Assembly: GCA_014896635.1 (NCBI GenBank)
Contig: JADBKA010000006.1
Location: 1 to 43,624 of the forward strand
Origin: Ktedonobacteraceae bacterium
Lineage (GTDB): Bacteria > Chloroflexota > Ktedonobacteria > Ktedonobacterales > Ktedonobacteraceae
Direction: 5' to 3'
Length of the DNA stretch: 43,624 nt
The position numbers and the translations under genes are program-made. Positions 9,988 through 12,609 of this stretch are shown here, piece after piece; the first letter of the stretch is position 1, and each line of letters opens with the position of its first letter. Below the pieces are notes generated by a model. The model saw only the letters and a program-made list of their open reading frames with translations. It was not told the origin of the DNA and searched no databases.

Positions 9988-12609
9988 TCAACGTTTCGTT
10001 CCGTAATTCGGGGCCTCTTTGGTGATCATCACGTCATGCGGGTGGCTCTCGCGCAGGCCCGCACTGGTGATGCGCACAAACTGCGTGTTCTCCTGCATCT
10101 CTTTGATCGTTGCCGCTCCGGCATAGCCCATCGCCTGCCGCAAGCCACCGATCAACTGGAATACCAGCGGGCCGAGCATGCCCTTATAGGGAACGCGCGC
10201 TTCAATGCCCTCGGCGATGACCTGCGTCTCATCAATGCCCTGCTGAAAGTAGCGATCTTTGCTATAGCTACGCTGCTTCATGGCGGAGACCGATCCCATG
10301 CCGCGATAATCTTTGAAACGCTCACCATGCGAGATGATCAGTTCGCCAGGACTCTCATCAACGCCCGCGAGCAGGCTGCCGAGCATAACGGTGTCGGCTC
10401 CGGCAGCGACGGCTTTGGCGATATCACCGGAATACTGAATACCGCCGTCGCCAATGACCGGCACACCGTAGTCGTGCGCGACACGGGCGCAATCATAGAT
10501 GGCGGTAATCTGTGGCATGCCGACGCCGGCCACCACCCGCGTTGTACAGATAGAGTTATGCACAATCGCATTATCGGCGATAAAGCTGTGCGTCGGGCAA
10601 TCAACCTCGATATCGTACACAGGTACATATATACCAGAATGACGCTCGCTAAGACGCTTCACCGCTTGATACTTCGCCAGGAGGCGCTTCTCATGCGTAA
10701 CATTGAGACGCGATTGGTAGCTTACACGACATTGTTTGACAGCTATGCCTTTGATACTTTCAGCAGATGCCTCGTCCGTCTGGCTGTTCGGAAAACTCCC
10801 TTCTAACATGTAACAGAGTACATTGAACAACTCAACAAGTTGTTGCGAAGTATTGCGGAAACAGAGGCGACCATCCTCAGCCTGACAACCATCACTATCG
10901 ATCAGCCCATCGAAGAGTCCCTGGAGGTAATCGCGATTCGAACTCAGGTATTTCTCTGGCAGATGCTTTTCGTGACGCTTCCCAAACTCGCTCAGGAGTC
11001 TTGCCCACTGGAGTGAGTAGAAATGAATATTGACGATGCTCTTGTATGGTGTTGCCTTCACTTTCACACCAGTCACTGTTTCCAGACAGCGAATAAACTT
11101 CTCGGTGATGTCCCGCTGGTTGAGCGCGAAGTACCACGATACGCGCCCCGTTATAGAATTCCGCGAAGGTGCGATAAAAGCATGACCATCACCAAGAAAC
11201 ATTCCGAAGACATAGCCAAGTTCATAAGAGTCCTCCACAGATGTCCTGTAACGCGCTAGCTGTTTCTTCTGGCGCACAGCAAACTCGCGTAAATCGATCT
11301 TGAAATGCTGCGGAAGATCGAACATGATATGCCTGGGCAGTAGCATTATATCGCGCTCACTGTCTCCGATCTCTTTCCAGTGAATCTTTGAAAGGCCGAG
11401 TCGAGTTGGTTGTTCTAGTAGCTTCGCATAACCTTTGCCAGTGACTGTAGCGGGGCTAACCGTTGTCAGATCACCTACAAGATAGCGATGGTCTGGCGTT
11501 ACATACGTTTCACGATATGAAGCGGTATGTCTTAACGCCATCACTTCGCGCGTGCCGGTACACCAGGCATTGACAACAGTGACAGGCTCTCCATTCATAT
11601 TGATTACACGATCACCTGGCCGGATATCCTCGATGTTCTTATAGAAGGCATTAGCCATGAGAATGCGAGTTCCAGCGGCAAAACAACCCGGGCCGATGCC
11701 TACCTTGATGGCATCGGCTCCGGCCTGGATCAGCGCCTCGGTGGCTTTGGCAGTTACGACATTGCCAGCAATGAGCTGGACATGCCTGCCAAAATTATCT
11801 TTGATGCGCGCCGCCATTTCGATGACCATGCGCGAGTGGGCATGCGCGGTATCAAGCACAAGGACATCTACACCTTCTTCGATGAGCGCGGCACAACGGT
11901 CCAGTGCGTCAGTTCCTGTGCCGACGGCAGCACCCACTCGCAGGCGCCCAAACTCGTCTTTGGCTGCGTTCGGGTAAAGGATCTTCTTCTGAATATCCTT
12001 CATGGTGATGAGACCTTTGAGCATGCCATGCTCATCAACAACCGGCAGCTTCTCAATCTTGTAGCGATGCAATAGATCGCGGGCCTGCTCCAGCGTGGTG
12101 CCAACTGGGACGGTGATCAGGTGCTCTCTAGTCATCAACTCGGATACAGGCCGGTCAATGTTCGTCTCAAAACGCATGTCGCGGTTGGTAAGAATACCAA
12201 CCAGCTTCCCCTGCCTGGTGATGGGAATACCAGAGATATGGAAATGGCGCATGACTTCCTGAGCCTGGCGCAAAGGTGCGTCGGGTTCCAGTGTGATCGG
12301 GTCGGTGATCATGCCCGATTCGGAACGCTTGACCTTGTCAACCTCCCTGGCCTGGTCATCAATGGAAAGATTGCGGTGAATAATGCCAATCCCACCCTCA
12401 CGCGCCAGAGCGATGGCGAGTCGCGCTTCGGTCACGGTGTCCATCGCAGCACTGACTATGGGTATGTTCAGCAGAATCTCACGGGTGAGCCGCGTCTGCG
12501 TAGAAACTTCGCGCGGCAGAACAGAAGAAGCGGCGGGAATGATCAGGACGTCATCAAAGGTGAGACCCTCTTTGACGAACTTTGTATCATAACCGTCTGT
12601 GTGAGACAT
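9988..12609 (-). CDS. guaB: IMP dehydrogenase with in-frame intein
   Basis: GuaB oxidises IMP to XMP, the committed step to GTP. The precursor has 873 residues: extein 1-308, intein 309-685, extein 686-873. Joined exteins give a 496-residue IMPDH of normal size, with the TIM barrel start [16 protein letters not shown], two CBS domains (about 95-215), RVGAAVG, AGNVVT, the loop GIGPG + [12 protein letters not shown], the flap [12 protein letters not shown] and [10 protein letters not shown]. The catalytic Cys is the third residue after the intein. The ATG at 12607-12609 has GGGAGGA ten bases upstream and fits the family start; a longer in-frame start is not supported. It has its own promoter at 12760-12789. 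Without splicing the active-site loop is split, so the enzyme should be inactive. Confidence 0.95.
10555..11685 (-). other. Intein in GuaB with LAGLIDADG homing endonuclease
   Basis: The insert encodes 377 residues from Cys1 to a C-terminal His-Asn, followed by Ser as +1 extein residue. Splicing blocks are all present: block A starts [18 protein letters not shown] and continues RPGDRV; block B has [10 protein letters not shown] with the TxxH motif; the two endonuclease motifs are [12 protein letters not shown] (156-167) and [10 protein letters not shown] (257-266), each keeping its acidic residue; block F is [15 protein letters not shown] and block G is AIVHN. All residues needed for protein splicing and DNA cleavage appear intact. 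The ends were set by aligning with uninterrupted IMPDH, which reads GIGPGSICTTR. Base composition looks more AT-rich than the flanking guaB sequence, consistent with horizontal entry. Confidence 0.95.

Follow-up and report, generated by a model that had tools for sequence, protein, structure and literature searches.

A putative homing intein at the catalytic loop of IMP dehydrogenase in a Ktedonobacteraceae bacterium

The window, the whole stretch of 43,624 nucleotides of Ktedonobacteraceae DNA that was analyzed, carries a guaB gene for IMP dehydrogenase (IMPDH) on the minus strand. The full open frame (9988-12651, minus strand) offers two candidate ATG starts, at 12651 and 12609, and judged by the sequence the latter is the likelier start because it is preceded by GGGAGG. 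Read from ATG 12609, the guaB precursor frame (9988..12609, minus strand) comprises 873 codons and a stop codon, and its 873 residues correspond to 496 residues of GuaB and an insert of 377. The N-extein (11686..12609, minus strand, 308 residues) contains the CBS domains and ends with GIGPG. It is followed in frame by the intein (10555..11685, minus strand, 377 residues from Cys1 to Asn377) and by the C-extein (9991..10554, minus strand, 188 residues), which starts with SICTT and provides Ser+1 as the splicing acceptor. Cys+3 of the C-extein is the catalytic Cys of IMPDH. Within the intein, the sequence TPDH at residues 63-66 (11488..11499, minus strand) corresponds to splicing block B, and the terminal His376-Asn377 is encoded at 10555..10560 (minus strand). 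The two LAGLIDADG motifs are FLGDG at residues 163-167 with the acid D166 (11185..11199, minus strand) and GLIDSDG at residues 260-266 with the acid D265 (10888..10908, minus strand). The insert therefore has the residues of a class 1 intein, namely Cys1, a TxxH block, a terminal His-Asn and Ser+1, and the two motifs of a LAGLIDADG homing endonuclease, each with its catalytic acid. A sequence-only reading of this DNA had placed a 377-residue intein here in the GuaB catalytic loop, with the active-site Cys as the third residue of the downstream extein and with all splicing residues and both LAGLIDADG acids present; its coordinates, lengths and residues all proved correct.

The IMPDH and CBS domains of the guaB frame scored above the Pfam cut-offs, and the NCBIfam model IMP_dehydrog scored 586 bits against a cut-off of 481.5. 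On the insert itself all Pfam matches were sub-threshold: Hom_end_hint with 30.4 bits (cut-off 32.1), Hint_2 with 21.9 (28.4) and Intein_splicing with 20.3 (35.8). The G+C content of the insert was 0.485, and that of the flanks 0.554 and 0.589. The structure of the intein was predicted with AlphaFold2 from a 42-row alignment of inserts, and the model had a mean pLDDT of 93.4 and a pTM of 0.92. Among PDB structures, Foldseek ranked the TliVMA intein (TM-score 0.70, normalized by query length) and PI-SceI highest, with a probability of 1.00, and placed I-DmoI lower. A PDB sequence search with the insert resulted in 8 matches at E<=1. The top five were PI-SceI or VMA1 precursors (E 1.9e-5 to 2.5e-4) and spanned only intein residues 1 or 2 to 39; the remaining matches were weaker. 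On the basis of the model, we are confident in predicting a HINT fold with a LAGLIDADG endonuclease.

The site is shared by a widespread family of contiguous IMPDH inteins, to which that of the window belongs. When 4002 candidate proteins were scored on the intein part, 932 passed E<=1e-3, and the protein-level counts given here rest on the best 120 of these 932 (P0001-P0120), which were 60-82% identical to the window intein. The insert pattern, GxGxG followed by Cys...His-Asn and SICTT, was present in 117 of the 120; P0072, P0091 and P0095 fell outside it and were omitted from later counts. Of these 117 inserts, 91 were exactly 377 residues long. Scanning genome contigs gave 65 loci, 35 of which (L001-L034 and L038) were IMPDH genes with an insert at the GIGPG/SICTT site and 30 were not. 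Based on record titles and NCBI ranks, the 35 carriers, complete chromosomes among them, belong to the Chloroflexota (3), Rhodothermota (1), Planctomycetota (4), Pseudomonadota (11), Deinococcota (1), Actinomycetota (11) and archaea (4). In the archaeal loci L028, L029, L030 and L032, three from records titled Woesearchaeota and one from a record titled "archaeon", the IMPDH site is occupied by the same intein. A scan of viral contigs gave 28 loci, and seven of these (L066-L072) had an insert between IMPDH-like flanks, in frames of 726 to 761 codons, with S-x-C replacing S-I-C in six. Matches in 15 GenBank phage records were all below 60% identity and fell within features whose annotation is not IMPDH, and the plasmid collection gave no match. 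Two further kinds of locus came to light in these searches. One more of the 28 viral-contig loci (L073:6001-7131) has a related intein, 36% identical to that of the window, in RtcB, where it is flanked by LIPG and SMG, and the C-terminal patterns also matched inteins before SExVY-type sequences, many in Mycobacterium (L035-L037, L039-L057, L059-L065), whose host gene we assume to be SufB.

Conservation was assessed in the 117 listed proteins and in 41 loci, the latter comprising 34 genomic loci (without the truncated L027), six viral IMPDH-like loci and L073; L068 was omitted, since its listed match was identical to that of L067. The five splicing residues C1, T63, H66, H376 and N377 were jointly kept in 116/117 proteins, the remaining one being gapped at T63/H66, and in all 41 locus inserts, which exceeds chance. 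Both nuclease acids (Asp or Glu) were present in 114/117 proteins and 32/41 loci. Their absence from three proteins and nine loci means that nuclease activity is not assured in every member. Members lacking the acids, such as those of Chromatium okenii (L025, L026), retain the splicing residues, a pattern to be expected when decay begins in the nuclease. The purple sulfur bacterial IMPDH inteins L025:6001-7068, L026:6001-7065 and L038:6001-7095 combine a decayed endonuclease with intact splicing residues, and the nuclease parts of L025 and L026 are far more divergent than their splicing parts. Cys363 was kept in 117/117 proteins and 37/41 loci, and Cys42 in 107/117 and 35/41. Between the window and L001, dN was 0.149 for the insert, 0.078 for its splicing part, 0.217 for its nuclease part and 0.071 for the C-extein; we claim no dN/dS ratio because synonymous sites are near saturation in this comparison.

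The presence/absence survey of the host class and the search for an empty target site in relatives, both proposed in the sequence-only reading, found the intein to be rare and empty sites to be the rule. The class sample consisted of 47 genomes from the class containing the genome of L002 (a Ktedonobacterales record), and three of them carried the intein. An exact-codon search found the empty site in only 4/47 genomes; it was narrow and was superseded by a search with the IMPDH model. At E<=1e-40 this gave an IMPDH match in 43/47 genomes and none in four, and the 43 matches were divided into 39 uninterrupted over the cut-off, three interrupted and one piece at a contig end. The site was readable in 40 of 41 class guaB loci and was empty in all 40; the unread locus, L135, is a second copy in one genome and lies outside the pattern. 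A direct comparison was provided by L138, a longer stretch of the empty relative L117. Its uninterrupted GuaB has 496 residues, and an alignment with the joined exteins of the window, also 496 residues, has 418/496 identical positions and no gap. The gene downstream of guaB in L138 encodes a protein resembling the product of window positions 8725-9243 (MEQLTNLVISD...). As is characteristic of a class 1 intein, the insert is in frame and occupies a conserved position of the host protein at which relatives have none.

On a GuaB tree with the 40 empty rows, the four carriers (the window, L001, L002 and L034) represented four changes, and their clustering was no better than that of shuffled labels (500/500 shuffles were as low). 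The window and the empty L117 were paired in this tree with a support of 100/94, and with 99/95 in a tree with 24 empty rows, which lacked six loci with Ala at +1 since the pattern used there read 24 of 30 loci. In the intein tree it was the window and L001 that were paired, with a support of 100/99. Given the few carriers in the class, the empty sites and a GuaB tree that requires a separate change for each of the four carriers, the window intein looks mobile from these sequence comparisons. The scattered carriage could alternatively stem from many losses.

The intein tree showed grouping mostly by host phylum, which indicates that long-range movement is not frequent. Mean identities were compared within and between groups, these being phyla, archaea and viral contigs. 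Between groups they were 0.483 for inteins and 0.491 for exteins (687 pairs), and within groups 0.604 and 0.722 (133 pairs), so that inteins change faster than exteins within groups. Between the window and the four planctomycete carriers, intein identity was 0.61-0.63 and extein identity 0.54-0.55. We informally read these sequence comparisons as some movement between phyla that was probably followed mostly by local spread and loss.

The +1 residue at the 40 empty class sites was Ser in 30, Ala in nine and Thr in one. The Ala+1 sites are those of L115, L119, L120, L121, L124, L126, L127, L131 and L133; their loop reads GIGAGAICTT in eight and GVGPGAICTT in one, and the nine rows correspond to three changes on the GuaB tree. 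A pattern for Ala+1 alone matched 17 genomes in a sample of 301 from the phylum, nine of the 17 being members of the class. Class 1 inteins cannot use Ala as the +1 residue. Ala+1 alleles would therefore be intein-proof, since splicing before Ala could not occur. It is conceivable, though we rate it rather improbable, that a homing intein directed at the near-universal catalytic loop of IMPDH passed between bacteria, archaea and viruses and that some hosts escaped it by changing Ser+1 to Ala. If true, this would mean that an IMPDH with Ala+1 still works while resisting the intein. Occupied, empty and Ala+1 sites within one bacterial class, in an enzyme needed for GTP synthesis, amount to a natural homing experiment.

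Taking together the anatomy, the predicted fold, the conservation, the empty site in a relative and the scattered carriage, we hold with high confidence that GuaB of the window contains a class 1 intein (Cys1, Ser+1) in which a two-motif LAGLIDADG endonuclease is nested, a putatively self-splicing and homing element. The intein would be translated as part of GuaB and then fold, and its self-excision, through the usual acyl shifts and Asn cyclization, would ligate GIGPG to SICTT and yield the 496-residue enzyme. Once free, the intein would cut intein-less guaB genes, with gene conversion as its means of spread. For the host there is no evident gain, and its GTP synthesis probably requires splicing. 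Splicing, DNA cutting and the status of this GuaB as the sole IMPDH of the organism are what we infer here. The dependence of GTP synthesis on splicing, anticipated in the sequence-only reading, is likely in view of other carrier genomes. Among 22 of these, which account for 22 of the 35 loci and of which several or many are drafts, there were 19 in which the IMPDH model matched no further full-length protein. Two carried a full-length paralogue lacking S-I-C (loops GVGPGRGCRT and GIGPGFACTT), and the archaeal carrier genome of L029 contained an uninterrupted paralogue with GMGIGSICTT. A second, partial IMPDH match in a frame of ∼390 codons was present in G001 and G021. The IMPDH model search found no uninterrupted IMPDH match in the three class carrier genomes.

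The intein could instead be kept as a conditional switch, with oxidation, metals or temperature slowing splicing and thereby tuning the guanine pool. Since it is the catalytic loop that is interrupted, the unspliced precursor should be inactive, and the conserved Cys363 and Cys42 leave room for redox chemistry; however, Cys363 is absent from some loci with intact splicing residues, and with 40 of 41 class guaB loci empty, GuaB without an intein is the normal state. The scattered carriage moreover fits a selfish element, and we regard a retained switch as very unlikely. Even less probable is that the insert has decayed to inactivity or stems from the assembly, with a precursor that does not splice and another IMPDH supplying the activity. 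The paralogue in the one archaeal carrier genome speaks for such a situation, but the class carrier genomes have no uninterrupted match of that kind, the insert and exteins form a single open frame with intact splicing residues, and few non-synonymous changes separate the splicing part from that of L001. An artefact of assembly is ruled out by the single frame and by the recurrence of the same insert in 35 genome-contig loci, complete chromosomes included. The same recurrence, with one open frame containing conserved protein-splicing residues, also rules out an intron removed at the RNA level, a reading with nothing in its favor to which we give practically no credence; Rfam at gathering thresholds identified two tRNAs and nothing else over the window.

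The putatively self-splicing, homing intein favored here can be compared with several known systems. PI-SceI and the TliVMA intein share with it, according to Foldseek, a HINT fold with a nested LAGLIDADG endonuclease, but they have ∼15% identity and reside in a different host protein. The contiguous IMPDH inteins in databases (such as P0001-P0120, L001-L034 and L038) share its site and architecture with no substantial difference, and some of these entries bear source names such as "IMP dehydrogenase/GMP reductase/intein/homing endonuclease". A report of a contiguous, endonuclease-bearing bacterial IMPDH intein was not found in the literature listings searched, which supports its absence from print weakly.

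The metagenomic IMPDH-1 split intein reportedly goes back to Dassa et al. 2009. It is a standard laboratory tool, with a native junction of GGG-SIC (PMC11271493). It is listed as a class 1 intein with Cys1 and Ser+1 and was found in metagenomic databases (PMC11766414). The sequence-only reading did not recall a described IMPDH intein at this position; IMPDH-1, with its GGG-SIC junction, has the same position, so the insertion site was already known and its novelty is ruled out (PMC11271493). In a further protein search that gave 702 proteins, 44 of the 120 listed had His-Asn before S-x-C, 61 were empty and 15 were unclassified. Five of the 44 (P0182, P0191, P0209, P0221 and P0229) had a short C-half of different sequence, with HN before SICST or SICTT, and from these sequences we read them as the split type; the other 39, mostly pieces, resembled the contiguous type. 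Split halves such as P0182 have the C-terminal block EKDHSYNVQGTVVHN, and the corresponding 16-residue block of the window intein differs from it. Eighty viral loci were kept, of which 79 were empty at the site and one was L072's own contig, and 64 of the 79 empty sites had NIGGG or NVGGG before S-x-C.

IMPDH-1 resembles the window intein in its IMPDH host, its insertion between GxG and SIC, its Cys1 and Ser+1 and its class 1 type. It is made as two pieces of ∼106 and 42 residues, whereas the window intein is a single 377-residue piece with an endonuclease, encoded in one 873-codon frame. IMPDH-1 is thereby joined at a shared site by many contiguous IMPDH inteins with an endonuclease, which puts this tool in an evolutionary context and makes new full-length inteins available for testing.
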